NCBI GenBank assembly: GCA_038025085.1
Contig: CM076152.1
Location: 26,062,001 to 26,126,000 of the forward strand
Origin: Tetragonia tetragonoides
Taxonomy: Eukaryota; Streptophyta; Magnoliopsida; Caryophyllales; Aizoaceae
Reading direction: 5' to 3'
DNA: 64,000 bases
Below, in pieces: positions 3,094 through 29,990 of this stretch. The translations under genes and the position numbers were made by a program. Numbering within the stretch: the first letter of the stretch is position 1; each line of letters begins with the position of its first letter. The notes beneath the pieces are model-generated. The model did no database searches, was not told the DNA's origin, and saw only the letters and a program-made list of their open reading frames with translations.

Positions 3094-3094
3094 G

Positions 3095-5600: not shown

Positions 5601-6684
5601 CCTTTGGGACAGTGACGAAGAGGATGATGGATCCTATACTGATCCAGAAGACGTGTTGACCCCGCAAGTCCATGACATAGCAAACGGCAAAGCCTGGTAT
5701 AATATCTCCGATGACGAGAAAGAGGAGGATGACAAAGCTCTGTACTACCTCACAAGGTCAGGACGCCAATTCAGGCCCGAAAATATCTATTATCACCCAT
5801 CTCAAATCCAACACATGGAGCTCGTAACAATCCCCAATAGGGATCCAGCCCAAAGAGAAATGGCTAAAGAAGATGATGGGACCAACATTCTCAAACAGTT
5901 GCAAAGGAAAAAAGCTGACATATCCATCTGGCAATTGTTGACCACTTCTATCACACATAGAAGGGCCGTGTTAGAAGCCTTGAATGCAACCACCATTTCT
6001 CCATACGCCACTCCTGAAGAGATAATTAACCTCCTGGTCCAAGGAAAGTCATCCACACCTGTCACCTTTTCTGATAAAGACCTTCCGCCTGAAGGTATCC
6101 ATCACAACAAAGCCCTTTATCTGACCGTAATCTGTCAACAAAGACAACTCCCTATGACTTTGGTCGACAATGACTCAGCCGTAAATGTATGCCCTTTGAG
6201 GACCGCTGAAGACCTCAAAATAGATTGTAACAATCTCGCGCATTCCGCACAAGGACTAAGAGCTTACGATAATTCCAAAAGAAACGTCTTGGGCACATTT
6301 TCCATGAACGTCAATATTGGGCCGATCGAGAAAATGGTCCAGTTCCACGTAATCGACATACCAGCCACCTTCAACCTACTCCTAGGAAGGGCTTGGTTGC
6401 ATGGGCTAAATGTTGTAGCTTTAACCCTGCATCAAAAGGTAAAGCTTTCCATGGAAGGATCCACACTGGAAATCTGTGCTGATACCATGGTGGCCCAGAT
6501 AGAAAAACCTCCAGTCCTAAAGATAGAGCATAATGAGCAAGACGAAGAATTGTGGGGCTTCGAGAAAATAGCCTTCATAGAAACAATAGAGCTCCCACTC
6601 AATGTAAATGGTCTACTCAGAAAGCAAGGTCACTTTCCAGGCACTACTCTGGGCCCTCACCCCGAGGTAGCCCAAACCTGCTAG
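5601..6684 (+). pseudogene. Element A protease region
   Basis: This is the same frame as the nucleocapsid, open to a TAG at 6682-6684. A variable acidic linker is followed by an aspartic-protease-like domain: LVDNDSAVNVCPL with the candidate catalytic Asp codon at 6166, then the HVIDIPATFNLLLGRAWLHG flap and fold region at about 6345-6410. In this retroelement family the active site normally reads DNGS, so DNDS is a likely missense change. The frame goes on after the TAG into the segment at 6766-7299. Confidence 0.75.
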
Positions 6685-7437
6685 AATACCAAGATCAAAA
6701 ACGATCTATCTGGGCTAGACTACAAGCCCACAAGGCAAGAAATCCGATCTTACATATCAAAGGAAGTGGCTAGGAAAAGAGTCCGCGTGGCCAACAAGCC
6801 CGGTTCACATAGCATGGATCCTTATCCCCTCACCCTTAATGGGCAGTTTCTTCAAGAAGGCGACCCATATCCTTATTACGGATTCCCTGAACCATATGCA
6901 ATCAATGGAGTCCTAGTTCTAGGCTTTGAAACATTTCAAGACTGCTTCACCATGAGTGAAGACACACCCATACCTCCTAATGAAGACCGATCCACGAAAG
7001 ATTGGGCTATTGACATGGCACCAAACGACTTCGGGCTACTATTTGGTGAACAGCGTCGCCAATACTACGAGGCAACAAACAAACTTCCCCTTGCTATGCT
7101 TTTTAATGAAGGTTTCGACCCGTCCAAGCTGATCGCCCCAATCGGCCCCGACCGCACCACCTGGAAGCACGAGATAAAGTGGACTCCAGTCGAAGGAGCC
7201 AAGTACAAGTTCACGATTCGCAACGGTCCGAGTCCGAGTCTGATTCTGATTCTGAGTCCGATTCCGAGTCCGAGTCTGATTCTGAGTCTGTTATCCTAGA
7301 AGTGTCGGGTAATCCACCCCAGTCTATTCCTGCTATTACTAAGGTCCTTAGTGATGACCTCATTGATGTATTTTCCGCTTCTATTAATTTTTATGAGTGT
7401 CGATTTTGCTTACTCGGATTGTCTCGTTGCTAATAAT
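6685..7437 (+). pseudogene. Element A protease-RT linker with Ser-Asp-Glu repeat and frameshift
   Basis: After the TAG the same frame continues at 6766-7299 with FNEGFDPSKLIAPIGPD, then enters a simple GTCCGA/TTCTGA repeat at 7226-7290. In the upstream frame the repeat reads as Pro/Ser/Leu/Ile. In the frame that leads to RT it reads as alternating Ser, Asp and Glu, followed by VILEVSGNPPQSIP. The reading frame therefore changes inside the repeat, most simply by a slippage indel. The acidic serine reading is more likely ancestral because it joins to RT. Confidence 0.6.
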
Positions 7438-8757
7438 TCAGAAGATATAGTGGAATTGCCAAAAGAATTCATTAAAGCATTAATCGAACATGAACAAAAG
7501 ACTTCAATAGTCAAAGAAACAGAGACAATAAATATTACAGCTAATGACGAACCTCGCCACGTGCAAATAGGCTTGTCTTTAACCTCTAATGAACGCGAAC
7601 CATTCGTAACACTCCTAAATAATTATACGGATGTCTTCGCCTGGTCCTACAAGGACATGCCCGGCATAGACCGCAACATTGCCCAGCACACCATCCCGCT
7701 AAAACCCGACTGCAAACCAGTCAATCAGAAGTTAAGAAGAATGAAACCAGAGTGGGCTCTTAAGATCAAAAAGGAGGTCCAAAAACAATTAGATGCAGGC
7801 TCCATAAGAGTGGCCAATTACCCCGATTGGGTAGCTAACATCGTCCCAGTCCCAAAAAAGGACGGACGGGTGCGAATGTGTGTAGATTTCAGGGACTTGA
7901 ACAAAGCAAGCCCAAAAGATGACTTTTCAATACCCCATATAGATGTTCTGGTGGACAATACTGCTGGACACGCCCTCCTATCATTCATGGACGGGTACGC
8001 AGGATATAATCAGGTCTTGATGGCCAAAGAGGATGAGAGAAAACCACTTTCGTCACGCAATGGGGGACTTATTGCTACACAGTAATGCCATTGTGGCTTA
8101 AGAATGCAGGGGCCACATACCATAGAACTGCGACAACCCTGCTCCACGATATGATGCATAAAGAGGCTGAAGTTTATGTAGATGACATGATCATAAAGTC
8201 CAAAGATAGGGAAGGGCATGTACCCTCACTTCAAAAGTTCTTCGACAGGCTTAGGAAGTACAACATGATGTTTAATCCCAAAAAGTGAGCATTCGGAGTT
8301 ACATCCGGCAAACATCTAGGATTTGTAATAAGTACTATAGGAATCGAGATTGATCCATTCAAGATCAAAGCCATAATAGACATGCCAGCACCAAAAACAA
8401 AAAAAGGAATAAAAGGCTTTTTGGGAAGGATCCAATACATTAGCAGGTTCATTTCCAAGTTGACTATCACTTGTGAGCCCATATTCAAGAAACTAAAAAA
8501 AGAGGTAAAAACGGAATGGGATGAACAATGCTAAAAAGCCTTTCACAAAATTAAGGCCTATTTATCTGAACCACCCGTTCTGGTACCGCCCACTCTAGGC
8601 ATGCCTCTAATCCTTTACCTTACAGTCACAGAGACGTCAATGGGGGCCATGCTAGCCCAAGAAATAGACAAGAAAGAAAAGGCAATCTACTATGTAAGAA
8701 ATAAGTTTCTAGGATACGAAACCCAATATTCGCCTCTAGAAACGAACATGCCTAGCC
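7438..8757 (+). pseudogene. Element A reverse transcriptase and RT-linked RNase H
   Basis: The fingers and palm motifs are clear: VPVPKKDGRVRMCVDFRDLN at about 7843-7900, HALLSFMDGYAGYNQ at about 7968-8012 and the catalytic YVDD at 8175-8186. A one-base deletion near 8041 shifts the frame at the KTTFVT segment. Stops follow at 8286-8288 (TGA) and 8532-8534 (TAA). The connection domain (GFLGRIQYISRF) and the first, RT-linked RNase H region (LYLTVTETSMGAMLAQE, then PLETN) run up to about 8760. The order and sequence are Ty3-like and match Tat elements. The number of lesions rules out activity. Confidence 0.85.
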
Positions 8758-9402
8758 TTGGTCGCGACAACTAAAAAGCTACGACATTACATTCTCCAAC
8801 ATACGATCCACATAAGATCGAGAGAAAATCCTCTAAAGTACATATTTGAAAAGCCCATACTCCATGGTAGAATAGCCGGGTGGACCGTCCTCCTGCCAGA
8901 GTTCGACCTCAAATTTGAACACCAAAATGCCATAAAAGGGCATGCCATCTCGGAGTACTTAGCCGACCAGGCTATACACGAACCTGATCACAAAGATGAA
9001 TACCACTTTTCAGAAGAAGGGGTCATGACATTAGATACCGAGACTTGGCAACTCTATTTTGATGGAGCATCTAACCAAAATGGTTTTGGAGTAGGAGTAC
9101 TAATAGTATCCCCCGACGGTGCACATACACCTATTTCAGTCAAATTAGACCACGAAGTCACCAACAATGGTGCAGAATATGAAGCTTGCATAATAGGAGT
9201 GCAATCCACTATAAGCCTCGGTATAAAGACGCTTCGAGTCTATAGGGACTCATCACTCATAATTAACCAAATTTCTAAAGTATGGAAAGTCAAAAGTGAA
9301 TCCTTGGCACTCTACCAAGATTACTTGGACAAGATCCTAGTTTAATTCAACCAAATACATTTTACATATCTCCCACGAGAAGATAATCAATTTGCAAACG
9401 CT
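8758..9402 (+). pseudogene. Element A second, archaeal-type RNase H
   Basis: The first part (RHYILQHTIHIRSRENPLKY) ends the RT-linked RNase H. A separate RNase H follows, beginning WQLYFDGAS, with acidic residues at codons 9061 (D), 9181 (E of AEYEAC) and 9247 (D of YRDSS). The fourth expected Asp, in the A-D-A-L motif, is Asn here (9397-9399), consistent with GAC to AAC. A TAA at 9343-9345 interrupts the frame. A second RNase H of this kind between RT and integrase is a hallmark of the Tat lineage. With the stop and the D-to-N change this copy is inactive. Confidence 0.8.
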
Positions 9403-9884
9403 TTGGCCAAGCTAGCAAGCATGATTAATATCCCTGAAACCATTCGGATGATGCCCATCTGCGTGCAAAGAAGATCCGAGCCTTCGTACTGCAACACTTT
9501 AGAAGTGTTCCATGATAAAGAAGACGAATGGTACACCTATATAAAGAATCTACTCGTCCATCAACTTTATCCTCCTGATTCTAGTCCTAGAGCCCAAAAG
9601 GCACTCAGAAGCCTTGCAACCCAATTCCTAGAGGTACAAGGCCTGATATACAAGAAAAGCCCAAACGGGATTAACCTCCTATGCGTAGGCACCAAAATAG
9701 CCCATAAGGTTTTACGAGAGGTACACACAAGAGTTTGTGGACCGTACATGAACGGCATGATGTTATCCAGGAAAATAATAAGGCTCGGATATTATTGGAC
9801 AACAATGGAAAAGGATTGTTGCGAATTTGTCAAAAGGTGCATACAATGTCAGACACATGCAAATCTACAACACTTACCGACAAG
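9403..9884 (+). pseudogene. Element A integrase, N-terminal part, cut by element B
   Basis: The frame shows the zinc-binding region of integrase: EVHTRVCGPYMNG, LGYYWTTMEKDCCEFVKRC and IQCQTHANLQ. The usual second His appears replaced in PYMNG. At 9885 it runs into the LTR of element B, after codons for HLP and an ACA. The same frame resumes at 18613 with the integrase core. The segment from 9885 to about 9927 that looks open is LTR sequence and does not belong to the protein. Confidence 0.85.
9880..9884 (+). repeat. Left target-site duplication of element B
   Basis: ACAAG precedes the LTR start and CCAAG follows the LTR end at 18607-18611. Four of five bases match, as expected for a 5-bp Ty3 duplication with one later change. 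Confidence 0.65.
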
Positions 9885-11262
9885 TGTAGACGCCAAAAAA
9901 GCGTCTTCAGGCTTTTCTACGAGATGATGAAAGGAGTAATTTTTAAGCTTGAACTGCTATTTTGCTTTAATAGTTTAAAATAAGGTCTCAGGCTTTTCTA
10001 CGAGATGGCATGCCCTTTATTTTTAACACTCCTTTATTTACATTCTATCCAAAAGCCCTATTCAAGAGCTTTCCAATGACACGTCTCATGCCTCATTCCG
10101 ACCCCCGACCGCCAAGTTGCGATAGAGGGGCAAAATCGTCTTTCGCCACTCAAGGGTAAAACAGTCTTTTCCCATTTTTCGGATCATTAAAAATTCCCTG
10201 GAAGATAAAGACAGGTTGGATGACGTCATCATGACGTCATCCAGCTGGCTGCAGACAGCCGTCAGCGGCCCTGAAAAACATCCCAGGGCCGCTAGCGGCG
10301 CTATCCTGGGCCGCTAGCGGCCTTGTCCAGCGCCGCTAGCGGCGCTGCCTTTCTCCTCGGGCCCGGCTCATATTTCAGGCCTGTTTCATTTTTCAGCTCA
10401 TTTTCACCCGTCCAACCCTACTTCTCCACGCCTATATAAACAACCCTCCACCCTCAGTTCAAAACAGACAGTCTACAGTTGACACCCTTTATTCTCAGTA
10501 GTATTGACTCTGAGCTTCTCCCTCTTTCTTCCATAAACAATTCTATTCTATTCTCGGGAGTATTGACACCGAGCTTCTCCCTCTTTCTTCCAAACTTGAG
10601 ATCTATTTTTACTATTCTTGTCAAATATAGCCTACAGTTCAGGTACAAATTCCTGAGGGCTCAAATTAAATTAATTGCTTAACTGTTTATTTTTCCAATA
10701 GTCATAACGTAGATATCATGCTAGAATAACGTTTTTATTGCTTCTTAAATATGTCTGTATAGTCGTTGTGCTGGTCAACTTGTCAAATCGAATGCATGTC
10801 TAAATAAGAGTTAAAAATAAATGTTGTGATGCTTGTGATGAACCAATTAATAGTCTAAGTCTAGGTTGTTAATCCGGTTTGTGTGGGAATAATGTCTTTA
10901 CATTATTAAGCAAACTTGAGTTAGTAGAGGCCGTCAAAATACGGGCAAGTTGGGTGCCTAACACCTTCCCACCTCGTACCTTTGCCCCCGAACCCTTTAT
11001 TCTTGGGTACTTATATGTTTTATATAAGCGGGGATCTTTCTAAAAACATGATTAGTTCACTTTTCGCGCTATTGGGTTGTCCCTTCGATAAAACGCCGAT
11101 AGCAGATTTGTGACCTCTTTCATGGTTTTTATTCAATTCAAGTCTTTACAAAAGCTTTTCTAACTCGATGGTCCCTTGAACTTATCTAAGCCTCCAACTG
11201 AAAAATTTTCTATAAGGACGCACTCCGTGGAAACCAACGTTGGAAAATCCCGGGTCCTTACA
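9885..11262 (+). repeat. 5' LTR of element B
   Basis: A 1378-bp LTR starting TGTAGACGCC and ending GGTCCTTACA. U3 holds three copies of the 12-bp palindrome GCCGCTAGCGGC (10288-10299, 10310-10321, 10332-10343), while the 3' LTR has one (17724-17735). The TATA box TATATAAA is at 10433-10440. A short phrase around CTTTTCTACGAGATG is duplicated near the start (about 9910 and 9990). The two LTRs differ by several indels, so the insertion is not recent. Confidence 0.9.
10433..10440 (+). promoter_or_regulatory. TATA box of LTR B
   Basis: TATATAAA lies 90 bp after the last palindrome. In the 3' LTR the same place reads TATGTAAA (17825-17832), so the 3' copy has a damaged box. Confidence 0.6.
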
Positions 11263-11263
11263 G

Positions 11264-11281
11264 TGGCGACTTCACTGGGGA
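11264..11281 (+). other. Primer binding site of element B, Arg tRNA-like
   Basis: TGGCGACTTCACTGGGGA starts one base after the LTR. It has two differences from the complement of a plant arginine tRNA 3' end and equals the site of element C. Confidence 0.78.
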
Positions 11282-12990
11282 TTGTTTAATATTTAAGAGG
11301 GTGAGACTCGAAAGTCATATTTTGCATCATTTGCATCATTTGCATGTGCCTTGGCACAACCTTTTGGCCCTTATCGACCCTCGAGGAAGTTTGTGTCGCA
11401 ACTCGTAGACAACGCATATATCTAAAGGAATATACAGTTGTCCTATCGTGCAAATCGACGCTTCCTCACCCATGACTCATCAATCCTTTGTTGATGAAAA
11501 GAATTACAATCGATGTGTCGACCATCCGCCAAACGGAAATTGTAATTTGTCGTGGTAACCTCACAGGAGCCAAAAGCCTTTAACCCACATTCGTGCATTC
11601 GCTTGCTTGTTGTGCATGTGTCGTTGTAATGCCCGTCTGATCACATGTTTGCCTGTAAACTACGTTGTTATAATGCTTGCTTGAACGCATGAATACCGTG
11701 ACTATGTGCCAACATGTACTTACGTGCTAGGAGTCATTTCTTTTATTTTTAGCTAGTTCCTAATGCCCAAAAAAAGTGTGAGAATTCTATTCAATGAGCA
11801 CTCGTTTCCCCAATGATATATTTTCATATAGCGTCGAAGTCATGAACAATTTTCTAGAACCTTTTAGCAAAAAAAAAGAGTCAGTCTCTCCAATTCCCCT
11901 CTCCCACTTTTTTTTTTATTTTTTCTTTTCTTTTCTTTATTTTATTTTTTTGATGTAATTCAGATTCGAAAAAAAAAAAACCGCCGAAAAAAAAATAATA
12001 CTAAATTCCGAAAATCAAAAAAAAAAATGCCGAAATTTCTTTTTTTTTGTTTTATCCCATTTTCCATTTTCTTTGAGTCAAAAAAAATAAATAAATAAAC
12101 GCCGAAAATAATGAAAAAAATTCGGAAAATAAAAAAATTGCCAAATTTCTTTTTTATTTTATTTTATCCCATTTTCCATTTTCTTTGAGTCTAGAAAAAT
12201 AAAAAATAAATAAAATAGGATGGTCCGTCTTTTTCTATTTTTTTTTTTTTCGTTCATCGACTTCATTTTTTCCTTTGATATGAGGGGAAATAATCGGGCA
12301 TTTAGGCTTAGGTTGTCATTTTTCTATTTCTTTGCATTGCATTGCATTACGTCGTACGTATTAGACGCTCCATGCTAGGATTCATAACTAGTCGTCATGT
12401 TTGCACTGTCGTCATTTTGCATATGCATTTGTACAAAAATCCGAGTCTTGCATTCATCAATGTCTCCATTTGTTCATTACGTCTCATACACTAGAAGTCC
12501 AGAAAGGTCACTCATTAAGTGCTTTAGAGTAATTCCAGGAAGCATCCACTCATTGTCATACATGTCAAGGTCAGTTCGTCATGCATCTTGCATATTGTTG
12601 TCGTAACTCTGTCATTGCATTGTCGTCATCATGCATTCAAGTTCATATGAGACGTCCATAGGCACATTAACCTTAGGGGTCATCGAGGGTCTTCTAAAAA
12701 TAACGAGTCTTTGTTTTCAAGTCCTTTCTTTGGCGTCTTTCTAAGTTGAGACTTGTGTTCAGGATTGGGGACTCGAGGAAGATTTACGGTGACAAAGGTT
12801 GGGCTCGATTGTCCGGCAGATTGATTCGTGTACAAGCTACTTGCAAGACACCACCACATTCCAAAAGGCCATCACCCCATAATCCATCACCACCACAAAG
12901 CTCGCCCCCACTCAATACATCCTTTACCTCACCAATCACACCCCCAAACTTCACCATGGTCAAAACCACTGACGAGAGGTTTATGAGCTC
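11282..12990 (+). other. Untranslated leader of element B
   Basis: No gene is seen. The part from 11870 to 12260 is built of A and T homopolymers and contains a roughly 115-bp direct duplication (about 12000-12190) that includes TTTTATCCCATTTTCC and TTTTCTTTGAGTC. Such tracts are hard to sequence, and lengths here may be unreliable. Confidence 0.6.
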
Positions 12991-13690
12991 ATGAGTGAGG
13001 TGGAAAGTCTGCGACTCAAGGTTGAAGATATCGACAGGAAAAGAGAAGAAGAGTCAAGGATCCCTTCCGATTCCGATTCTGAGGAAGAAGGTTCAGATGC
13101 CATGCTGGCTAAGATCACCTCTGTGCTCAAGAGTAGCGACTTGATCTCCAACTATAGTGCCAACGTAGGAAAGTTCGACACTAAGATCAAGGGCAAGCTT
13201 CCAGCCAAGTTCTCCATGCCCGAGGTTCCGACGTTCATTGGCACTGATAATCCACAAGATCACCTCAAGGCCTTCACCAATGCCATGGCTTTAAGAGGAG
13301 TTGACAAAAATATCTACATTCACTTGTTCCCACAGACTCTTGATGCCCAAACTCGTCGTTGGTTCTAGACCTTGAATTTAGAACTACCCAACTTGGTCCG
13401 ATTTTACCACAGTCTTTCTTGTACGCTACAAGGAAAATGTTGCTCTACCTATGACCCTTCGAGAGTTAGAGATCACGAAACAAGAAGAAGATGAGCGATT
13501 CACTGCCTTCCTTAGGAAGGTAGCCGAACTGGTTGAGCGACCTTCGCAAGCTGATCAAATCCGCCAACTCATCAAAAACCTACAACCTGCTTACAAGGAA
13601 CCCCTCAAGTATCAAGCAATTGACTCCTACAACCGGCTCTATGTTGTGGGCATCCTAATTGAACATAACCTTCTTAGGAATTCCATTTAA
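12991..13690 (+). pseudogene. Element B gag, broken and truncated
   Basis: The frame at 12991-13368 has an acidic N-terminal part (SDSDSEEEG) and the capsid block around KLPAKFSMPEVPTFIGT, ending at a TAG (13366-13368). A frameshift follows, and 13451-13690 carries PMTLRELEITKQ and the helices to YNRLYVVGILIEHN. Compared with element A, a few residues of the RRWR segment are missing near 13515. The nucleocapsid zinc motif and all of pol are absent. Thus even the undamaged ancestor made at most a capsid-like protein. Confidence 0.82.
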
Positions 13691-15892
13691 GTCGTGAACA
13701 ACACGGGTACCTACAGGGGGTTGTCCTTCGTATCCTTGTGAACAGCCTATGCTCGAGAAGTTGAAGAGAGTCAAAGTTTCCTAGTGTGCAAGTCTAGTTA
13801 AGTCCAGTCAAGTTTAATGATATCTAGTTGTCTTTTCAATTCTTCCATAGAGTCTAGCTTACTTCTCGTGTAATGCTTTTCTTCGATTCAATAAAGATTG
13901 CATTTTGATTCCCATCATTGTTCTTTGTTCAATTCTATGACGAACTTAAGTTGCCTATGACGGAATAAAAAAAATCAAAAAAAAATTCAAAAGAAAGCCT
14001 TCATTGTGGAAAACATTAAGCAACAACTCCCTAATGATCATCCCTATAGAAGCATACAGTTGAACCGTCCGTGCCGAGGACAGGAGGCATTCATTTGGCA
14101 CTTCACATCAATATCCTTTACTACCCTATACATCATTACCACTTGCAACCCTTTGAGCCTTAAACACATAGCCTTTCATTTCTTAACCACATCATCCTTA
14201 CCCGGGGAATGGGTGTGTGCGACATCGGAGTAGAAGCAACCTTCTAGGCAAGGTGGACCGACCTACAAAAAGAGCCACCAAGAGGAATACCAAAAAACAA
14301 ATATAGAGAACTCGCAAGTTCAAAATTAAAAAAAAAAAAAAAAAAGAGGAAAAAATTCAAGAGCGATCAAAGATCCAAAAGAGTGAAAACACTCCTAGCA
14401 CAACCAAACAATGGCCTTACCTAAACATAGGTCTCTTAGCCACCTTGCCCAGATTACAAGCTTCTATACCATCTAGCATACTTTGGGGAGGGGATTTACA
14501 ATGGGTTTCTTTGAACCTTTATCCTTTCTTTGACACCTTAACCCAGCCTGACATTACAACCCTAAAGCCCTCCAAGAGGTACGACCATTCAATTGTACGG
14601 TCCTGAACTACGTTTGCCTGATTCTATAAACTGGATACGTAGGAAACCTCAAGGAGGTCCGGCCATGACAACCACTTTGTCACATGATCATAAAGAAGTT
14701 TTCCTATTCCACCATTCTCATCTAAGACTAAAAAAAAAATGAGCCCGGTAGGTTGAAAACCCGAAAGGGCGGCCTAGGCAAAAGTTAGGGCAACCAAAAA
14801 AAAAATATATAAAATAGATAAAATTCAACATCTTGAGGCAACTTAAAATTCCGAGGATTTAGAACATTGTTTCTCATGTAAGCGCTCATTGGTCAGTTGT
14901 CTAGAGGTCATACTCATCACCTTTCTCGTAGGCTTGCACACAAACTTCCCAACTGGGGGCTTTTTCAGAATGAGTCGGTTCCTTGTCCGCTACGTTCCAA
15001 GTTGGCCATTTTGTCCCTATACCTTAAGTTAGGATAATTTGTACCGCCGCATCAACACCCATAGCTCCTCGAGTAGGTCATAACCATCAAGAACCACACA
15101 TTAAACTGGGGGCTGATTCTCCCTTGACTACACCCAGTTTTGTCCACTTTTCTCATACTCTTTCAAGATTACCACAAGAATGAAATTCTTGAGGTCAAAA
15201 ACTTTTCTCATATGAAGACCCTCTTCAGACCCTATAGGAGAGTCGTGCATGTTAGGCTAGGCTGCATGGAGCTGTGAGTTAATAGAGTCTGCATCCATCA
15301 TATTTGCATAAGTACTAGAGTCGCCTTTAAAGGCATGTATGTTTACATAATTTCTCAGTGTCTTGAGTCCCTACGTCTTTACATGTAAATCCCCCTATTA
15401 CCCGTGCATATTATTATGTCATGTGTTGTGCATCTTGTCATGGTCAGTCGGGCATGTCTATTGCATCTTTTCTCTATGTGCATATTTCCACTGCAGGTTT
15501 GAGTCTACCTGCTCTCCATCGAAACTAGCAAGCAAGCCCGAAACTCATGATCAAGTCCAGAGGCAACCTTCCAACTACAGCCAAGAATGGACATAACCTT
15601 CCAACAACAGCCAAGCGCGCGGGCCCCTTTTGCTGTCCCACGGCCCCTTTTCCAGTCCAAAGTTCGTTATTACAGTTCATCTCGCGGCAACATTAGTAAA
15701 AAACGCGCGGGAGCAAAGCCCTCAGGCCCACAAATTCAAAATTTGACAGTTAGCTTATTTTACGGTACCTACTACTTACAGGTAAAACTAACCCATTTAT
15801 TTTGCAGGATCTACATGGCGACGACTCTTACGACCAGGAGCGCCCAATTTATCCATAAGCCCGAAATTTTCAACGGCACTTGTCAAGCAATT
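13691..15892 (+). other. Noncoding interior of element B
   Basis: No convincing gene. Two blocks are shared with element G: the CTACG...CGTAG block at 14608-14642 and a segment at 14741-14792 containing AAAGGGCGGCCTAGGCAAAA. Short frames here, such as 15363-15916, have no recognisable content and are not called. Confidence 0.6.
14608..14642 (+). promoter_or_regulatory. Conserved CTACG...CGTAG block, element B copy
   Basis: CTACG at 14608-14612 and CGTAG at 14638-14642 can pair and enclose a 25-nt loop with CCTGATTC. Elements A (19624-19659) and G (62298-62330, minus) have the same arrangement after their last coding region. The role is unknown; an RNA signal is my inference. Confidence 0.5.
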
Positions 15893-16672
15893 CAACACTA
15901 CAATCTTCCGGGTTAGTCGATGATCGCTAAAGTTATTGTGGTTAAACTATCCCTGGGCAACACTACAATCTTCCGGTTTAGTCGATGATCGCTAAAGTTA
16001 TTACGGTTAAACTATCCCTGGGCAACACTACAATCTTCCGGTATAGTCAATGATCGCTAAAGTTATTGCGGTTAAACTATCCCTGGGCAACACTACAATC
16101 TTCCGGGTTAATCAATGATTGCTAAAGTTATTGCGGTTAAACTATCCCTGGGCAACACTATAATCTTCCGGTTTAGTCAATGATCGCTAAAGTTATTGCC
16201 GTTAAACTATCCCTAGGCAACACTACAACTTTCCGGTTTAGTCAATGATCGCTAAAGTTATTGCGGTTAAACTATCCCTGGGCAACACTACAACTTTTCG
16301 GGTTAGTCAATGATCGCTAATGTTATTGTGGTTAAACTATCCCTGGGCAACACTACAATTTTCTGGTTTAGTCAATGATCACTAAAATTATTGCGGTTAA
16401 ACTATCCCTGGGCAACACTACAACTTTCCGGGTTAGTCAATGATCATTGAAGTTATTGCGGTTAAACTATCACTGGACAACACTACAATTTTCCGGTTTA
16501 GTCAATGATCGCTAAAGTTATTGCGGTTAAACTATCCCTGGGCGACACTACAATTTTCTGGTTTAGTCAATGATCGCTAAAATTATTGCGGTTAAACTAT
16601 CCCTGGACAACACTACAATTTTCCGGTTTAGTCAATTATCGCTAAAGTTATTGCGGTTAAACTATCCCTGGG
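15893..16672 (+). repeat. Tandem array, 12 x 65 bp, in element B
   Basis: Twelve units of exactly 65 bp start at CAACACTACAATCTTCCGG and end at AACTATCCCTGGG. Units differ by point changes only; none changes the length. More diverged pieces (GTCAATGATCGCTTAA and similar) follow to about 17060. The array sits in the 3' untranslated part shortly before the polypurine tract, the place where Tat elements are known to grow satellite-like repeats. Confidence 0.92.
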
Positions 16673-17337
16673 CAAGGTTACAGATTTTGTATGCTTCAGT
16701 CAATGATCGCTTAAAGCGGTTATACTGTCCATTGTTTTTATATGTTTCAGTCAATGATTGCTTAACCTATTGCATTTAAACTGTTCATATGTTTTAACCA
16801 TTTTGCAGCAGTCATTTTGATCGCGTTGTCTCGTCGACCTTTTCGTTTCTTATGCATGGACGGAATCTCTGCATCCGCCGAGTGGTGTTTAGTCAATGTT
16901 TGCTCGATAAAGCATTTATACTATTCACTCTCATGTTACTAACCATTTTTTGCAGCCGTTATTTTTAATCGCGCTGTCTTGTTGACTTTTTCGTTTCTCA
17001 AAAAGGGACGAAATCTCGACATCCGCCGAGCGGTGTTTAGTCAATGTTTGTCGAAGCACTCTATGTTGATCATCCTCAAAGTATTGCTAACTTTTTCATT
17101 CACTCTGAATACAGGTCCCCAGCAGACGTTTAGACCAGCTATCCTTCTACTATTAACCTTTCAGTTTCTCTTGTGTTCACAGGGATGAAATCTTAGCACA
17201 CTACGAGCATTGTTCCAACACAGGTTTGTCTTCATATACATACATATTGTACACTCTCACACACCGTTGCACATCAGCATCCTGCATGTCGCCTTCAGAA
17301 TACTTTGATCTTCGCTTTTATTCAAACCCGATCAAAG
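16673..17337 (+). other. Diverged repeat remnants before the 3' LTR of B
   Basis: No gene. Degenerate half-units continue the 65-bp array, and a second phrase, CATCCGCCGAGxGGTGTTTAGTC, occurs twice (about 16870 and 17020), suggesting an older repeat of about 155 bp. Confidence 0.5.
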
Positions 17338-17347
17338 TGGGGGCTTC
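17338..17347 (+). other. Polypurine tract of element B
   Basis: GTGGGGGCTTC directly precedes the 3' LTR. The same sequence stands before the 3' LTRs of A (26131-26141) and G (61020-61031, minus). It primes plus-strand DNA in LTR elements. Confidence 0.75.
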
Positions 17348-18606
17348 TGTAGACGCCAAAAAAGCGTCTTCAGATTTCTCCGCAAAAGCCCGATGATGAA
17401 AGGAGTAATTTTTAAGCTTGAACTGCTATTTTGCTTTAATAGTTTAAAATAAAGTCTCAAGCTTTTCTCCAAACACTCCTTTATTTTCATTCCATCCAAA
17501 AGCCCCGTTCAAGACATTTCCAACGACACGTCTCATGCCTCATTCCGACCCCCGACCGCCAAGTTGCGATAGAGGGGCAAAATCGTCTTTCGCCACTCAA
17601 GGGTAAAACAGTCTTTTCCCATTTTTCGGATCATTAAAAATTCCCCAGAAGATAAAGACAGGCTGGATGACGTCATCCAGCTGGCTGCTGACAGAAGTCA
17701 GCGGCCCTGGAAAACGTCCCTGGGCCGCTAGCGGCGCTGCCTTTCTCCTCGGGCCCGGCTCATTTTTTAAGCCTGTTTCATTTTTCAACTCATTTTCACC
17801 CGTCCAACCCTACTTCTCCACGCCTATGTAAACAACCCTCCACCCTTAGTTCAAAACAGACAGTCTACAGTTGACACCCTCTATTCTCAGTAGTATTGAT
17901 TCTGAGCTTCTCCCTCTTTCTTCCATAAACAATTCTATTCTATTCTCGGGAGTATTGACACCGAGCTTCTCCCTCTTTCTTCCAAACTTGAGATCTATTT
18001 TTACTATTCTTGTCAAATATAGCCTACAGTTCAGGTACAAAATCCTGAGGGCTCAAATTAAATTAATTGCTTAACTGTTTTTTTTTCCAATAGTCATAAT
18101 GTAGATATCATGCTAGAATAACGTTTTTATTGCTTCCTAAATATGTCTGTATAGTCGTTGTGCTGCTCAACTTGTCAAATCGAATGCATGTCTAAATAAG
18201 GGTTAAAAGTAAATGTTGTGATGCTTGTGATGAACCAATTAATAGTCTAAGTCTAGGTTGTTAATCCGGTTTGTGTGGGAATTATGTCTTTAAATTATTA
18301 AGCAAACTTGAGTTAGTAGAGGCCGTCATAATACGGGCGAGTTGGGTGCCTAACACCTTCCCACCTCGTACCTTCGCCCCCGAACCCTTTATTCTTGGGT
18401 ACTTATATGTTTTATATAAGCGGGAGTCTTTTTAAAAACATGATTAGTTCACTTTTCGCGGTATTGGGTTGTCCCTTCGGTTTGTCCCTTCGATAAAACG
18501 CCGATAGCAGATTTGTTACCTCTTTCATTGTTTTTATTCAATTCAAGTCTTTACAAAAGCTTTTCTAACTCGATGGTCCCTTGAACTTATCTAAGCCCAC
18601 AACTGA
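17348..18606 (+). repeat. 3' LTR of element B, 3' end missing
   Basis: Matches 9885-11262 but stops after the CAACTGA phrase, lacking the last 65-70 bp that in the 5' copy end GGTCCTTACA. It is followed at once by CCAAG and integrase sequence. The G+C cluster is shorter than in the 5' LTR, with one palindrome instead of three. Confidence 0.85.
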
Positions 18607-18612: not shown

Positions 18613-19500
18613 CCGTTATATACCTTCACCTCACCTTGGCCTTTCTCTGCTTGGGGAATACACATCATTGGCAAGATAAGCCCGACAGGAAAAGGAGCTC
18701 ATGAATATATCCTGGTCGCAATCGACTACTTCACCAAGTGAGTCGAAGCTCAATCATACGCAAAGCTCAAGGCAAAGCATGTGGTTAAATTCATCAAGAA
18801 TAACATAATAGCTAGATATGGAGTTCCCCAAGAAATCATCAGTGATAATGGGTCACACTTCATGAAAGAAGTAATTGAGCTTTTAACCCAGTTTAAGATC
18901 CAGCACCGAAAGTCGTCTCCCTACAGATCGCAAACGAACAACACAGCAGAGACAACTAAAAAAAACATCAAGAAAATCATTAAAAGAATGTCTGAGAATT
19001 ATCATGATTGACCTGACAAATTGCCATTCGCACTTTGGGGTTACAAAATGTCGGCCCGCGCATCAACAGGAGCAACACCATACTCCTTGGTCTATGGAAT
19101 GGAAGCTGTATTGCCAATTGAGCTAAAGGTCCCATCTCTACGGATCGTTTTAGAAAGTCAAATTCCAGAAGTGGATTGGGTCCAAGCCCGCTATGACCAA
19201 TTAGTCTTGCTAGATGACAAAAGGTTACAGGCTTTGCACAATGTAAGAATCTATCAAAAGAGGTTAACAAAGCATTCTAACCAAAAGCTCAAACTAAGAG
19301 ACCTCAAAGTTGGAGATTTAGTACTTAAAGAGGTGAGGGCCAATGTCACTGACCCAAGAGGCAAATTCAGACCCAACTGGTCAGGCCGATTCCTCATTAC
19401 AAAGATCCTACCAGGTGGAGCAGCAAGATTAGCATATTTTGACGGCATTGAGTTTAGTCAATGGATAAACATGAATCAATTTAAGAGGTTCTATACTTAG
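18613..19500 (+). pseudogene. Element A integrase, catalytic core and C-terminal part
   Basis: This continues the frame of 9403-9884. The DDE spacing is intact: codons 18661, 18844 and 18949 are 61 and 35 codons apart. The first is His (CAC) where Asp is expected in the WGIHIIG motif; the Asp of SDNGSHF and the Glu of TAETTKKN are present. TGA replaces Trp at 18739-18741 and again at 19009-19011. The C-terminal part (19021-19500) has the GxxPYSLVYGMEAVLPIE block and the RGKFRPNWSGRF beta-barrel and ends at TAG 19498-19500. No chromodomain is seen, as expected for Tat elements. The lesions make it inactive. Confidence 0.85.
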
Positions 19501-20054: not shown

Positions 20055-21479
20055 TTATTCAACCTCCATTAGAGAGATGCTTGAGGAGGCCTCATGATCA
20101 TTGGCCCAAATTTGGGGCTCTACTTGCGGCTTGGTAGTAATCTTTTCCAAAGCCTTCTTGGCCTTCGGGTTGAGGACACTTCTCACATGCTTGACTCCTT
20201 TGTTTACCTTCCCTTTAGGATCATTGGGGTTTGAAAGTCTTAAGCTGGCTTTGACTGATTGGGCCTTGAGATCGCCTTGTTCGGATTTCCTGCATGCATG
20301 ACGACCCTCCGCAGTCTTACAGTCCATCCAAGCTTCATAGGCCGAAGATATGGTCGTAGGCCCCTTGACGTGAGGAATAGTCCACTTACGGCGACGATCC
20401 CACGCACACTCCCATGATCGCACCATGCTAATTGTTAAAGCCCGTGTAGCAGGAGCAATACTATCCTTTTGTGGGATAATTTGACGTTTCCGATATTGCC
20501 GCATGATACGGCTAGGAAATATGTAAGTCAAGTTTTGAAGGCCAAAGATTTGATAATATCCCGTTTCCTTGGTACATCCGATTGCGGATTTTAGGCCCAA
20601 ACACTTAATAGTCCATCTTAGCAAAGGGCAAGCTTTAAGGTACCCGCGCCATTCATCAATGGTTGACTCATAATAGAGCCTTTGGCGAGCAGGAAATTGC
20701 TTTGGTTGATATTTGAGCGCATTAGCAGGCCTCTCAATGAAGCACATGTGCTCCAGGAGCCATATCTAAAAAAACCACAAGGCAAAAACATAGAGTTAGA
20801 TATCCATTAAAGAGCCAAACTTTAATTCAAAGCAATTTATTCAAGCACTCACTTGGAGGAGAAGAGGGCTTCCCGTCCATCCGCCAGGCGACGGCTCTTG
20901 TTTCTTGCGGTCCAAACAAATTAAAGTTTCACCAAGAACAAGAGACATTGGGGTAAAATCGTTTTGAATTTGTTTCACAATTCTAGGCATACAAGTTTTA
21001 CCATTATTTCCTCCACCAACAAAGAGGTACCTATGCAAGAGACATAAGATAAAAGCACGCCTATAATAAGTCTCATCATGGTTATCCCTTACCTTGGAGA
21101 ATAAGATGTCAATCACACCATTGAGGTCTAACTCACCGCTCCTTGCAACGGAGGAGGCTTGTGTTGAGGATAGGCCAAGATACCTTTTATAATAGCCTTC
21201 AAGGTTTGCCGCAAGCCATGGAGTAGCGGGAGCTTGATCATGAGGAAACCCAAGGATAGCAGCAAATTCTTCGGGAACAGGGCATAATTCGTTGTACCGG
21301 AATCGAAAGACATAGAGTTTGTCATCGCAAAATTCAATGGAAGCCTCAAGAAGGTTCCAAACGATTTGAACTTTCTTTATGTGGAAGAGAGCATTCAAGT
21401 GGAAAGGCACAATTCTCATCCTTTCTTTGGAGGTCATAGATTGTAACCACTTGTCAAATTTAGCATCAAAGCTTGTCAT
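20055..21479 (-). CDS. Intact two-exon antisense gene, DUF7745-like protein (445 aa)
   Basis: Exon 1 is 21479-20853 (209 codons, from ATG) and exon 2 is 20765-20055 (236 codons plus stop). The 87-bp intron has donor CAA|GTGAGT and acceptor TTTTTTAG|ATA, phase 0. The joint puts LLLQ next to IWLLEH, a combination typical of this family. N-terminal features are FRYNELCPVPEEFAAILGFP and a region of hydrophobic helices. Later come YIFPSRIMRQYRKRQIIPQ and a basic, Lys-rich tail with PKAKKALEK. The domain is of unknown function and is seen in plant retroelement-associated proteins; I compare it from memory with DUF7745 and the related plant mobile domain. The gene lies inside element A, opposite to gag-pol, between integrase and the PMD gene. 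No nonsense or splice lesion is present, unlike every sense gene of A. Confidence 0.78.
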
Positions 21480-21639
21480 GGATAAAAACTAAATTAATGG
21501 GGAGGTTTCTCTCTCTAAAAAGCTCTCTAGTGCTACTTTTGCTAGTAAATTATGAAGGTGATGTCCCAAAACCGGACTAACCCAATGCTTATATTGGGCT
21601 CGCACGAAAAAGACGAAAAAATAAGGCAATGCGTCAAAA

Positions 21640-21800
21640 AAGGGCTTCAGCGGCCCCTGAGACAGCCGCCGAAGGCTCGGTGGCCCAGATAGTGTAGCAC
21701 AGGCCCAGCGGCGCAGCGGCAGGCTGCCGAGCCCCAGAGGCACAGCCGCTGATCCTGGCAACCCTTGTTTTCGCCCCTGCTCCTTCGCATCAGCCGCTGA
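21640..21800 (-). promoter_or_regulatory. AGCGGC-rich cluster upstream of the DUF7745-like gene
   Basis: A G+C-rich island in A+T-rich DNA, 160-320 bp upstream of the ATG on the minus strand. It holds several AGCGGC/GCCGCT words, the same vocabulary as U3 of all four Tat-type LTRs. On the minus strand AATATAAG follows at about 21575, a possible TATA-like element. A promoter role is inference. Confidence 0.45.
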
Positions 21801-21859
21801 ACGCCTACCTTTGACTGCCGGGCTATTTTCTCGAGACAATCCTCTTTTCTCCGATTTTG

Positions 21860-22294
21860 GACACTTTCCTTAACCGTTTTGGACTCCAATTTGGCTCTAT
21901 TTCCTATTTTTCATTATTATTTCCATTTTGTATTATTTCCTTATTACTTATGGAAGATCAAAAATTTCCTTATTTCTTTCGGACGATTATCATCTTTTCT
22001 TTTTTGTTTATTAACCCCTTTTTCTACTTATTCATTTCATTTCATTTTTGCATCCCTTTCCTTTTTTTATTTTTTTAGGGGGATAGGGTACATCCAATTT
22101 TAACTTTTTTGGCTGTACCATTTTTTGCTACATGGCTATTACTTGCGTTTTTGCTTGACTACCTATGCAATTGCATTAGCCTAATTACGTGCAGGCACCA
22201 ATAAATGAGCAAAATTTACAAGCAAAGTTCGAATGTTTGTTCAACACGAATGTTCAAAAATGTATTTCATACAAATACATTATCATAAAAATCA
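21860..22294. other. Spacer between the two antisense genes
   Basis: T-rich on the plus strand (21900-22140), no gene. It would hold the 3' untranslated region of the PMD gene and the far upstream region of the DUF7745-like gene. Confidence 0.45.
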
Positions 22295-25035
22295 TCACCC
22301 GCATCGGCATCCGTAAGGAAGCACCTCAAAGTGATCCTCCGTTCTCCGCGGCTCGTCGCCGAAAATCGACGCCGCAAACTGGCTAGGGTCAAAGGAAGAT
22401 TGTCGGACAGGCTCCCGGTACGAGCACCCTTCCCCAGCATAACTCAAATCATAGCCCCACGAAAAACGAGGAGGCATGGTAGGCATCACAGGAGCAGGGA
22501 CGGGAGGCTGGTAGTAAAGACCACCATATGAGGGATACCCCGCAAACCCGGGATAAGAAGGATACATCGGCAGAGGCATAGGAGTAGGCTCCACAAACGG
22601 AGTCATCCTACTCCCACCAGGATGATCCGTCCGATGCACAAGTACACTCTCTCTCCTAGGACTCTCCCTCCTAGGGCTCCTCTCACGCGAAGGGCTACGC
22701 TCAGGAGAGCTCACAACCTCATCATCCGACAATACTACCTGTCGTGACTGACGACGAAGGGGTCGACGATACTCAACCTGCAACCCACAGAAAATACATT
22801 AGATACCTTTCTCAAAGCATGCAACTTTGAAAATGCAAAACCAAGTTTACCTTGTCCAAGTCGACTCTTGAGCAAGTACCCTTCGAGAGAGCCCGAGATA
22901 TCCAAGACTTCATAGCATGCATCATCTTGAAGACCTTCCCAGTCTGCTCACGGTCAAGCTGCACAGGGAAAGTCAATACAAGCATGCAAAATGGTAAAAA
23001 TCACATACAATAGGTAAAATTACGAATTTACCCTAGGATGCCTACCTGGAAGACGAAGGCCCTGGATGTCCTCATCAAGGTCCTCCGTCATGGGGATTTC
23101 TCCCCATCACTCCTTCCCGCCATAGTCCCGACCTCCGACCCGCATATCCGGGACATCCACATCGATGGCGTCAACCCGAGGCTCCAGCAAAGCAAAGTAG
23201 GTTAGTATCAAGCAAAACAAGAAAGGCATAGAATATAAAATGTTAAATTCTTATCTTCAAACCCATAAAAAAAGGCATGAGGCGACCAAGGCGGAACTGC
23301 TCGTAATGCCCCGCAAGGTCCTCCGCAGGCTCCCTCAAATACCGCATAGCATCCGAGCCCACCATGGCCTCCACAACCTGCTCACGAGACAAGCACCTCA
23401 CTAAGAACATGGTCGACGGAGGATCCAAAGTAATCCTCGGACCAGCCACGTCAGGGTAAACCTGACAGAAGATCCGCTCTCCTAGATACCACACGAAGGA
23501 GAACGGACCTGCAATCAGGATCCTCTGGCGGTCCACCGCCCTAGATGCAAGGATAGCATCCGAAGCCAACCCATGATACTTCGCCCATGGGAAGTAGTCA
23601 ATCTACGCAAGAATGCAATATAAGATATTTCCACACCAAGAAGTACAATCCATATAATCTATACGACAAAAAGCAAGGATACGTTACCTTGTGCCAGTCT
23701 AGGCGCAAGAGGGCCTCCCTGTACTGCTGAAGAGTTTGCAGAGGCACAGGACCCCTATGACGCCATGCTCTACAAACCGAGAAATCTAACTACCATCCCA
23801 TAGGCGCCATGTCCGGAAAATTCTTTAAAAACCAAGGCTATATCAAAACATGAAATTAAGCACCACACAGTTAAATCATGCAAATTACAAAAAACGGATA
23901 CAAAAAGCAAACGCACCTGCAAAACCTTCCAAAAACCGCACAAGTTCACGGGAGGAAGAGTCGACTGCTTGTATCCCTCATCATTCATGCGGCAAGCAAA
24001 CCGCATGCACCTCAAGAGGTTTGCGTAGCCCGGCAACCCCCAATTGTACTCTCTCACTCTCTCCCAGTTCAGCAGACTCGGGAGGTAAATAGCATGAATG
24101 CGCTCCCCCTTGTAACTAAAGATAGTAGTGGCAATGAGGTAGGCCATGAACATCCTCGCCTTCTGCTCCACCGAGGTATTTCTCTTATACCTCGGTTCCT
24201 TCAAAGCGGTAAAGAGCTCGTTGTAGGGACGATAATGGTGACCCCAAGTGTTCCCCCAAGGGCCAAACAACTCCACTATCTCCGTCTTACACTTCCAAAT
24301 GGAAACGTCATATACGATGGGCGTACCCATGCAAGGTACCCCGGTCAACATAGCAAACTCCAAAGGAGTGATCATCATCTCCCCATTAGGGAAATGGATT
24401 GTGTTGGTAGTGTCCCAAAAACGCTCCAAAGACAAGCGGACAATACACCTTTTGACTCGCTCAACCGAGTCCGTCGCTTTTAAAAGGGGCCCAAAACCCG
24501 CACTCAAAACTGCATCTTGCACCTCTTTGGGCAGGATTTTGTAAAGCTTCATTGAAGAGCCATAGTTTCCATAGGCCTTCAAATTCCCATCGGGTTCCTA
24601 TGATCAAATTTGCGACCTCTTAGGTTCACATTTCAATCAAATGTTCAATCCTAGGAATCTTTCTAAGTTCATTCAAGCCGCGCAAGATCACATGCGCTAC
24701 AAACATGACAATTGCATACAAGTTCTACACAAATTCTACTCAAGGCAAAGCATATAAACTAAAATTCAATGCACAAAACTATGAATTCAAAGTTTGGGGC
24801 TTACCACAAACATGAAAGCCCGAGAGCTCAAATGAGTCGTCGGTCGGAAAAGCAACTCCGATCAATCCGAAACAATGTCGGGCATCCTATCCGACCGGGT
24901 GTATCGAACTTGAGGGAAAGACACATTAGGCTTCCTCTTTGAAGGCTTCACATGAGATGGAAAAGCCTTGGTGAAAATGTCAATTTTCTCGACCTCTTCT
25001 CACACCTCGGCCCTCCTACTCTTCCTCTTTGCCAT
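22295..25035 (-). pseudogene. Seven-exon antisense plant mobile domain (PMD) gene, nearly intact
   Basis: Exons by minus-strand order: 25035-24805, 24597-23917, 23789-23688, 23602-23255, 23181-23032, 22958-22851, 22777-22295. All introns are phase 0, and together the exons give about 700 codons. The start MAKRKSRRAEV is basic and could be a nuclear signal. The PMD (aminotransferase-like) core lies in exon 2: FWDTTNTIHFPNGEMMI, TPLEFAMLTGVP, and LPPVNLCGFWKVLQ at its end. Exon 3 has YREALLRLDWHK and exon 4 begins DYFPWAKYH. Exon 7 encodes an Arg-Ser-rich stretch and a Pro/Tyr/Gly-rich tail. Lesions are TGA at 25000-25002, 24862-24864 and 23107-23109, and a donor that reads ATAAGA (23254-23249) where GTAAGA is expected. 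PMD proteins act in silencing and genome stability in plants and are known from retroelements. The exon model is mine, from splice sites and frame. Confidence 0.75.
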
Positions 25036-26127: not shown

Positions 26128-26141
26128 AAAGTGGGGGCTTC
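26128..26141 (+). other. Polypurine tract of element A
   Basis: AAAGTGGGGGCTTC directly before the 3' LTR. It is shared with B and G. Confidence 0.75.
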
Positions 26142-27572
26142 TATAGACACTATAATCGGTTCTCATCCATTGGCACCGCAACGCCCGATGATGATGGTAA
26201 TGGACTAACATGGACGTAAGTGGAAAAGGACATTGCTCAGAAATCTAGACCAAATTCCTTGAAACTTCAGTCTTTGGATAGCCCTTGTTATAAGGTTTCC
26301 GACGCCTTTGACCTTGCCTCAATCAGGTTCTCGGATCAAGCGATATCGCGCCTCGAAGATTTGGGTCAAAAACGAACAATCCCGACCCCCTGGGTCAGCC
26401 CAAGGGCAATTTCATAATTTACTGAGCACAAAAATTCAAAAAACCTAGTCACGCGCGCGCCTCCAGGGCCAGCGGCTGACGCTGTCAGCCTGGCGGCACA
26501 CGCGTGACAGCAGGGGCCTTCTTGGCAGCCGCTGAGCTTCAGCCGCAGGCCGCGCAGCCTCAGCGGCCTTCCGTGTGGCCGCTAGGCCTGTTTTTTTTGG
26601 CTGGGCCGAGTTTGGCGTCGGGTTTCTTACCCAAGGCCCCTAATTCCGTCCCCTAACTCTATAAATACTCTTTTTCACCCTATTTTGAGAGATGTTGGTC
26701 AGTTTATAATTTTGAGAGCATTGATAGCACAAATTTCCTCTAATCATAGAGAATTCAGATTTTGAAGATTCAAGCAAGCTATTGCACCCCACCTAGCACC
26801 CAAGATTGAAGAGCAATTCCAATTCTACTAGTCCCGTTCGAATAGAACGTCCAGGTTAACCATCCTGAGGGCCTAAATTGTCTATTAAAATCTCTTATTT
26901 ATTATTTATAATCATGTTTTATTTAGCCTTTGATTATGGTTGAATAAATTTGCATGCTTGCGTTTTTGTACATAATTATGCATGACTAGACAATTTAATG
27001 TTAGTATCTTTTTATTAGTTTATACAAGTTTGCATCTTTTTTATAGGTTGTACATGCATATAGCAACCTTCTAGGTTTATTTTAGCATAAAGTTGATATT
27101 TTTGCATTGTTCTTCCTTTGAAGTTACTAACAAATTTATTGATGTGCATATGCAATACTTGGCACGTTTAGCAAAATGGGGTAGGTTAGAGCGTTAATTA
27201 ATGATTTATCTCTTGTTTATGCTTGGTAATAGTATGCATGTAAATTGGATATAATTGTGCAAAGTGATAACATAGGTAATTTGTTTGGTTTTAACCCGCC
27301 TAGTTAATATAGGATCTTGGACGACCGGACTTATATGGAACCATATAGTATAAATAAATATTTGACATGGATAGGCTTAGTAGAGGCCGTTTATTCGGGC
27401 GATTTAGATGAGATTCGTTTTGTTTATTTCGTACCTACACCCCCGAGCTCAATATTTAGTCCCCATGGGCATGAGTCAATTCCCAATAGGAATTGGGTGC
27501 ACTTTTTGATGGTTTCCAATTATTTCCTAAAAGTTGGTGGCGGCTTCTTTGTTTGCGAATCGTTATTCCCCA
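26142..27572 (+). repeat. 3' LTR of element A, truncated
   Basis: Colinear with 1596-2996 of the 5' LTR. The first bases read TATAGACACT, so the terminal TG is mutated. The U3 cluster has more AGCGGC words than the 5' copy. Homology stops at TTCCCCA (27572); the last 97 bp, with the hairpin and the CA end, are gone and sequence of element C follows. Confidence 0.85.
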
Positions 27573-28141: not shown

Positions 28142-28160
28142 TCCCCAGTGAAGTCGCCAC
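28142..28160 (-). other. Primer binding site of element C, Arg tRNA-like
   Basis: GTGGCGACTTCACTGGGGA on the minus strand directly after the LTR. It is identical to the site of element B. Confidence 0.75.
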
Positions 28161-29988: not shown

Positions 29989-29990
29989 GA

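Follow-up and report, generated by a model that had tools for sequence, protein, structure and literature searches.

Elements that are copied through RNA usually lose their introns, which makes intron-bearing antisense genes in a retrotransposon family surprising. How such genes could be carried, and whether they matter to the element, is the question raised by element A, a Tat-type Ty3/gypsy element at approximately positions 1596-27572 of the window, the 64,000-nucleotide stretch of Tetragonia tetragonoides DNA analysed here. A first-pass annotation had recognised, in the stretch from integrase to 3′ LTR and antisense to gag-pol, a DUF7745-like gene of two exons and a PMD gene of seven, whose seven introns are all phase 0. 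This plan can be read directly in the window, and its splice sites are kept across copies. Taking all the evidence together with the inferred steps described below, we consider it likely that the gene pair is a long-standing, selected component of this family.

The 5′ LTR of element A (1596..3093, plus strand) was found by self-BLAST, its end being set by comparison with an inverted relative and nested element N. The LTR pair (1598-2997 and 26144-27572) is 91.7% identical by self-BLAST, with a K2P divergence of 0.066 over 1399 sites. The 3′ LTR (26142..27572, plus strand) is apparently truncated at its 3′ end by about the last 95 bp, the 5′ LTR extending to TTACA at 3089-3093. A PBS-like GTGGTGACTTCACTGGGGA (3094-3112) directly follows the 5′ LTR and may correspond to tRNA-Arg, a tRNA-Arg PBS being a criterion for the Ogre clade; a polypurine-tract-like AAAGTGGGGGCTTC (26128..26141, plus strand) was recognised by its sequence. 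The first part of gag-pol (4101..9884, plus strand) holds gag, RT, RNase H, a second RNase H and the integrase zinc finger, and is broken by stops and frame changes; the ORFs at 4771-8082 share one frame and are split by stop codons alone, as in a decayed copy. Profiles PF17917, PF13456 and PF17921 scored above cut-off here and PF00078 below, while the gag ORFs gave zero Pfam matches, gag being assigned by position only. RT_RNaseH is followed by RVT_3 within 8740-9342 and then by Integrase_H2C2 within 9346-9924, all above cut-off. The second RNase H (aRH) that characterises the Tat lineage is thus present, and it lies between RNase H and integrase, its place in the angiosperm types. Gag-pol is interrupted in the window copy by a nested second LTR element inserted inside the integrase (9885..18606, plus strand; LTR pair 9885-11201 and 17348-18606, 88.9%), after which the integrase core and C-terminal part follow at 18742..19497 (plus strand; PF00665, 4.6e-8) with one internal stop.

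The DUF7745-like gene (minus strand) consists of exon 1 (20853..21479; ATG at 21479; dN/dS 0.16), an 87-nt phase 0 intron (20766..20852; GTGAGT...TTTTTTTAG; GT in 14 and AG in 15 of 15 copies) and exon 2, which includes the stop codon (20055..20765; dN/dS 0.16). Both exons are open in the window copy. With the DUF7745 profile (PF24924), a check proposed in the first-pass annotation, window exon 1 scored weakly (E 0.0011, 18.5 bits; curated cut-off 26), but L029, a full-length unspliced relative, passes at 40.8 bits, and the profile was matched at E ≤ 0.1 by all seven copies scanned, the window copy included (best 3.9e-5). L029 is homologous to exon 1 (tblastn 4.7e-12), and exon 2 aligns, starting at its own first residue, to L029 residues 276-421. 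A TATATA lies 105-107 nt upstream of the ATG in 11 of 15 copies, the window copy being without it. A protein database search with this gene returned 3178 candidates, 0 at E ≤ 0.001. The spacer between both genes (21480..22294, minus strand) has ratios of 0.55-0.83 in all six frames.

The PMD gene, also on the minus strand, runs from exon 1 (24805..25032; dN/dS 0.14 over the last 62 codons) through exon 2, the plant mobile domain core (23917..24597; 0.16), exon 3 (23688..23837; 0.17), exon 4 (23255..23602; 0.21), exon 5 (23032..23181; 0.25) and exon 6 (22851..22958; 0.13) to exon 7 (22295..22777; 0.27, 13 copies), an Arg/Ser-rich then Pro/Tyr-rich tail whose RS-rich stretch is readable in 12 of the 14 copies possessing exon 7. 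The exon plan and the proposed PF10536 match both held up: window exon 2 scored 7.7e-16 (58.6 bits; cut-off 34.9), and 11/11 copies scanned matched (best 4.1e-17). It had been overlooked that this gene is a pseudogene in the window copy: exon 1 has two in-frame stops, exons 3 and 5 have one each, the start is disrupted, and the donor of intron 4, downstream of exon 4, is mutated. Of exons 2, 3, 4 and 7, which were scanned, only exon 2 matched a Pfam profile (exons 3 and 4 from other copies gave nothing up to E 10 either); the predicted joining of the other exons is based on their conservation, their common phase and the codon signal. The 700 nt preceding the PMD start contain no TATA[AT]A, and a protein database search with exon 2 gave 483 candidates, 0 at E ≤ 0.001. 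AlphaFold models of single exons (mean pLDDT 38 and 43) were too poor for a fold search.

The codon signal was scored as dN/dS across 14 copies (13 for exon 7). Ratios were 0.13-0.27 in all nine exons, 0.14 for integrase and 0.52-1.01 for introns and spacer; the remaining antisense-strand frames of the exons gave 0.98-2.06. The sense-strand frame rc1 was likewise low (0.17-0.48), as expected since third positions mirror; in eight of the nine exons, all but exon 6, it contains on average over one stop per copy. Purifying selection on both genes is thus about as strong as on integrase, so they are more than mere passengers.

These ratios bear on the idea that the antisense RNA and not the protein matters, pairing with the genomic RNA into double strands or interfering with it, a possibility discussed for other antisense ORFs (PMC7264820). 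Antisense retroelement transcripts are reported in the available text of PMC7264820, and PMD loci yield phased siRNAs in tea, according to the part of PMC10673657 available to us. However, codon-level selection is seen in the predicted antisense frame, with little in spacer and introns, and we consider this reading unlikely as a replacement for protein function; RNA action could be an additional effect. Very unlikely, in our judgement, is that these are old transduced host genes, now neutral and retained as harmless. At least one exon is broken in each of the 15 aligned copies, so that present-day expression of intact proteins is unproven, and in two copies (L017 and L020) most of the cassette is gone, though nothing indicates that either has spread. 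Against neutrality, pairwise dN/dS is well under 1 and like that of integrase, and the antisense DUF7745 gene that occupies this slot in a second Tat family of the same genome looks constrained too (dN/dS 0.29, two copies). Neutrality was rejected; the earlier description of the cassette as a retroelement passenger therefore stands as regards carriage by the family, but not as regards mere passage.

Stops and a mutated donor in the window copy could also be taken to mean that the introns are unreal, the genes being decayed single ORFs with gaps. Yet GT/AG is retained in 13-15 of 15 copies at 13/13 splice sites tested, and in 14/15 at the fourteenth, the intron-4 donor, which is canonical in all 14 other aligned copies. 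For comparison, 44/80 GT and 43/77 AG dinucleotides inside introns and spacer are kept in at least 13/15 copies. The introns are also richer in AT (0.64-0.76) than the five exons measured (0.43-0.57), and uniform in phase. In addition, the second-family DUF7745 protein, encoded by a single exon, aligns continuously across the predicted element A junction. This reading is largely refuted by these observations and we regard it as scarcely credible.

We then consider how the cassette is distributed in the family, using 20 further copies that rank between 2 and 30 among the 150 best PMD matches, a sample that is non-random as it comes from the top ranks. Both genes occur in the same order beside integrase in 14 of them; two others have internal deletions, and in four similarity stops before integrase. 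Integrase or the family LTR adjoins the cassette in 20/20 (both in 13), and none of the 20 has the cassette outside an element. Cassette-part distances track integrase distances (r 0.66-0.75; permutation 0/2000). Copies lacking the cassette, or the gene pair outside retroelements, had been named in advance as signs of host DNA inserted by chance; although PMD genes exist as host genes too (PMC5418596, available part), there is practically no chance that a host gene pair landed in one element copy, given the other copies with the cassette, hundreds of genome-wide matches to its borders and the history common to cassette and integrase, and we rejected it. The layout shared among copies, and codon-level selection in the frame predicted for each exon, go beyond what chance would give.

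How, then, do the introns survive? Two of the seven junctions were searched in the genome in spliced form, with 0 and 0 matches, using patterns able to catch 15/15 and 14/15 aligned copies had those been processed; matches to the two unspliced exon/intron borders numbered 838 and 709. The genes therefore seem to travel in sense RNA, in agreement with what had been proposed from the window. The element would be copied via its sense genomic RNA, in which antisense introns would go unrecognised and so pass reverse transcription unharmed. Laboratory antisense-intron retrotransposition reporters follow the same logic. In the family we see a natural way round intron loss, with antisense genes holding their introns through hundreds of copies.

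Both proteins would be made solely from integrated DNA, by opposite-strand Pol II transcripts spliced in the nucleus; this transcription and splicing are predicted from sequence features. With less certainty, the proteins may re-enter the nucleus to control expression of the element that encodes them. By analogy, they are possibly nuclear regulators with an anti-silencing function, the most plausible mode being interference with the silencing pathway of the host PMD proteins MAIN and MAIL1; such host relatives act in silencing (PMC5418596, available part). A parallel would be VANC, the anti-silencing genes of VANDAL DNA transposons, whose VANC proteins have a DUF1985 domain (PMC5735166, available part). 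VANC genes are likewise element-encoded and intron-containing, and DUF1985 is weakly matched by 11/11 PMD exons 2 (best 5.5e-6, below the Pfam cut-off; window copy 23 bits, cut-off 35.1). In contrast, VANDAL is a DNA transposon without RNA copying. We would offer only tentatively the wider proposal that this lineage keeps multi-intron genes antisense through its RNA intermediate, that opposite-strand splicing filters out protein from genomic RNA, and that the pair counters host PMD/PP7L-dependent silencing, the element's accessory proteins being both relatives and opponents of the host silencing factors.

The two proteins may themselves be relatives within one PMD-like superfamily, as the DUF7745 protein of L029 matches the PMD profile at 11-345 (3.7e-7, below cut-off) and L030 matches it at 0.00039. 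When the profiles of PMD exon 2 and DUF7745 exon 1, both from shallow alignments, were compared, the result (E 0.024, probability 2%) was no more than a hint.

Several features have precedents, as the first-pass annotation recognised for extra Tat ORFs and retroelement PMD domains (PMC6317226, PMC7264820 and PMC11963269, each in its available part). In Retand-type Tat elements, TRP28 (PF04195) ORFs lie antisense in the region from pol to 3′ LTR (PMC11963269, available part); like element A, these elements have a long pol-3′ LTR region, often with tandem repeats, and antisense genes in the same slot. Unlike them, element A has two genes with seven introns and PMD-superfamily proteins, and PF04195 is absent from the cassette ORFs and exons scanned (in the PMD gene, exons 2, 3, 4 and 7); the terms intron, PMD and DUF7745 occur 0 times in the main text of PMC11963269. 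Ogre elements, 57% of which have PF10536, resemble the large element A in their PMD protein and in a second RNase H before integrase; their two ORFs, about 274 bp apart on average, are not seen in element A, and the available part of PMC6317226 is silent on strand, introns and any second gene for the Ogre PMD. The PMD-A1 and PMD-A2 clades are also Gypsy-borne, across angiosperms, with no exon structure or DUF7745 partner described in the available part of PMC5418596. Maize Grande gene23, which has a promoter of its own, likewise lies antisense downstream of pol, its protein family and introns not being stated in the available part of PMC7264820. Since Tat antisense ORFs and Ogre-type PMD are already described, the novelty lies in the spliced two-gene arrangement; our literature search did not find a conserved multi-intron antisense gene pair described in a retroelement.

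The available part of PMC5418596 leaves open whether PMD proteins originated in elements or hosts. As transposon silencing involves host PMD proteins, a PMD pair that an element carries under selection offers a direct test of whether such proteins were element weapons or host defences first. The second Tat family, with no intron at the DUF7745 junction, indicates that introns are dispensable for this gene. With the same antisense gene present in two Tat families of a single genome, once with its intron and once without, gain or loss of introns in a retroelement becomes open to test.

Element A is a Tat retrotransposon, as the second RNase H domain between its RNase H and integrase domains shows; this domain marks angiosperm Tat elements according to PMC6317226. 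Its 5′ LTR starts at about 1596 and its 3′ LTR ends at 27572, and the two are 91.7% identical by BLAST (K2P 0.066 over 1399 sites). Profile matches within pol are to RT (below cut-off), RNase H, RVT_3 (the second RNase H-like domain) and the integrase zinc finger, and the integrase core lies at 18742-19497, downstream of a nested LTR element at 9885-18606. The nested element, which is perhaps non-autonomous, has a gag ORF that resembles those of Tat elements and matches Retrotrans_gag below cut-off (E 0.03), an array of 65-base repeats at about 15763-16777 and a PBS-like sequence nearly identical to that of element A; we noticed no pol ORF in it. The apparently truncated 3′ LTR of element A adjoins an inverted relative at 27639-29991, the first part of which (27639-28715) is 80% identical to 2536-3618 reversed. 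Another related LTR lies at 59198-61022, and the plus strand at 42565-49192 carries parts of a host gene that has several exons and belongs to the Bax inhibitor-1 (PF01027) family, the first part scoring below cut-off.

The first-pass annotation had described two spliced genes antisense to gag-pol between integrase and 3′ LTR, and this layout holds. Both are on the minus strand and, inward from the 3′ LTR, the seven-exon PMD gene (25032-22295) is followed by the two-exon DUF7745-like gene (21479-20055); all of the seven introns are phase 0. PMD exon 2 scores well above cut-off against PF10536. PF24924 matches exon 1 of the DUF7745-like gene weakly in the window copy; the same profile matches this exon in all seven copies scanned (E ≤ 0.1). 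The PMD gene of the window copy is broken, with stops in exons 1, 3 and 5, a disrupted start and a mutated intron-4 donor (canonical in 14/14 other copies), and both exons of its DUF7745-like gene are open.

This cassette recurs across the genome. Searching 753 Mb with PMD exon 2 returned 6430 first-look candidates, and all 150 that were scored match at 83-100% identity. We examined 20 copies (L009-L028) drawn from ranks 2-30 of these matches. Integrase, both DUF7745 exons and PMD exons occur in identical order and orientation in 14 of them, 13 having all nine exons and one (L016) being without PMD exon 7. In two further copies (L017 and L020) an internal deletion places integrase almost against PMD exon 3 or 2, and in four (L011, L014, L019 and L023) similarity stops short of integrase within the stretch read. 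A family integrase or LTR adjoins the PMD match in 20/20 copies, and both do so in 13. By position alone, among the matches listed on contigs C1-C3, at least 15 of 27 PMD matches are followed in the same orientation, no more than 6 kb away, by an exact DUF7745 donor, a lower bound since exact donor matches alone were counted, and 14 of these pairs are spaced 2.7-3.1 kb apart. When a donor was instead sought on the other strand or upstream, up to 20 kb away, as a control, 1/27 had one among the matches listed.

All nine cassette exons have dN/dS of 0.13-0.27 (14 copies, window excluded; 13 for exon 7), compared with 0.14 for integrase and 0.52-1.01 for introns and spacer, analysed likewise. Of the remaining frames, the two on the antisense strand give 0.98-2.06 and two of those on the sense strand 0.83-2.55. 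The third sense-strand frame (rc1) gives 0.17-0.48, a low ratio of the kind expected from mirrored third positions, and its mean number of stops per copy exceeds one in eight of nine exons, exon 6 being the exception. Distances for cassette parts correlate with those for integrase (r 0.66-0.75; 0/2000 permutations) and with one another (r 0.77-0.94), both over 15 copies. Among the 15 aligned copies, that of the window among them, none is intact in all seven exons checked, as expected of dead copies of a constrained lineage.

The dinucleotides of 13 splice sites are retained in 13-15 of 15 copies; in the background of introns and spacer, 44/80 GT and 43/77 AG are likewise kept in at least 13 copies. 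The AT fraction is 0.64-0.76 in introns versus 0.43-0.57 in the five exons measured. In the spacer (21480-22294 and its homologues) TATATA stands 105-107 nt upstream of the DUF7745 start codon in 11/15 copies, a possible separate promoter. We also searched the genome for processed forms at two of the seven junctions. The unspliced DUF7745 exon 1/intron border has 838 matches (21 bases, ≤1 mismatch) and that of PMD exon 2 has 709 (30 bases, ≤3 mismatches), with none for reversed-pattern controls. At the length and tolerance of the latter, the spliced junctions DUF7745 1|2 and PMD 2|3 each returned zero, using patterns that would detect 15/15 and 14/15 aligned copies, respectively. From these counts and element biology, the cassette thus seems to travel unspliced in sense RNA.

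A second Tat family, which carries an unspliced DUF7745 gene, offers independent evidence on the splicing prediction. Two of 11 long unspliced DUF7745 matches, L029 and L030, have integrases 45-55% identical to that of element A, and in both the gene is antisense to integrase in the same slot as in element A, as a single ORF, 477 or 504 codons long from stop to stop (L029:2734-4164; L030:2822-4333). Neither PMD exon 2 nor PMD exon 4 has a tblastn match in 7 kb of either locus; tandem repeats lie beyond the DUF7745 gene. L029 residues 89-274 align with exon 1 of the element A gene up to its penultimate residue, and residues 276-421 with exon 2 starting at its first (exon 2 score 82; maximum 53 in 300 shuffles), leaving a single residue between the two alignments, the last of exon 1. 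Since L029 is continuous across this junction, the intron is present in the A family and absent from the second. Like the spliced one, the gene without the intron seems to be under constraint (dN/dS 0.29 from two copies).

An early survey is that of Steinbauerova et al. 2011. The literature searched lay mostly outside subscription journals, so its silences are weak evidence: it yielded no mention of DUF7745, no title describing a spliced antisense PMD/DUF7745 pair and, for an intron-bearing spliced antisense ORF in a plant Gypsy LTR retrotransposon, nothing except an unrelated review. Antisense ORFs in Tat elements have already been described (PMC11963269), in a paper whose main text contains none of intron, PMD or DUF7745. 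According to three further papers, 57% of Ogre elements carry PMD (PMC6317226), PMD-A clades are exclusive to Gypsy (PMC5418596) and PMD is the commonest atypical domain in an LTR element survey (PMC9289625).

Judged by sequence, the two genes seem to belong to a single superfamily, since the L029 DUF7745 protein matches the PMD profile over almost its full length (3.7e-7, below cut-off); the L030 protein gives 0.00039. PMD exon 2 weakly matches DUF1985 in 11/11 copies, a domain contained in VANC anti-silencing proteins (PMC5735166), and PMD exon 7 has an Arg/Ser-rich stretch in 12/14 copies. The host PMD proteins MAIN and MAIL1 are active in silencing, according to PMC5418596 and PMC7156037. 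Our best guess is that the cassette encodes putative nuclear regulators or anti-silencing factors.

Two variants of a PMD intron start were seen at 100 exact places among the matches listed, of the 709 for the PMD exon 2 border, and are split by contig: 58/59 of the first are on C1-C3 and C5-C9 and 40/41 of the second on C4, C10 and C11. This split suggests allopolyploidy, with the elements having had distinct histories in each of two subgenomes.
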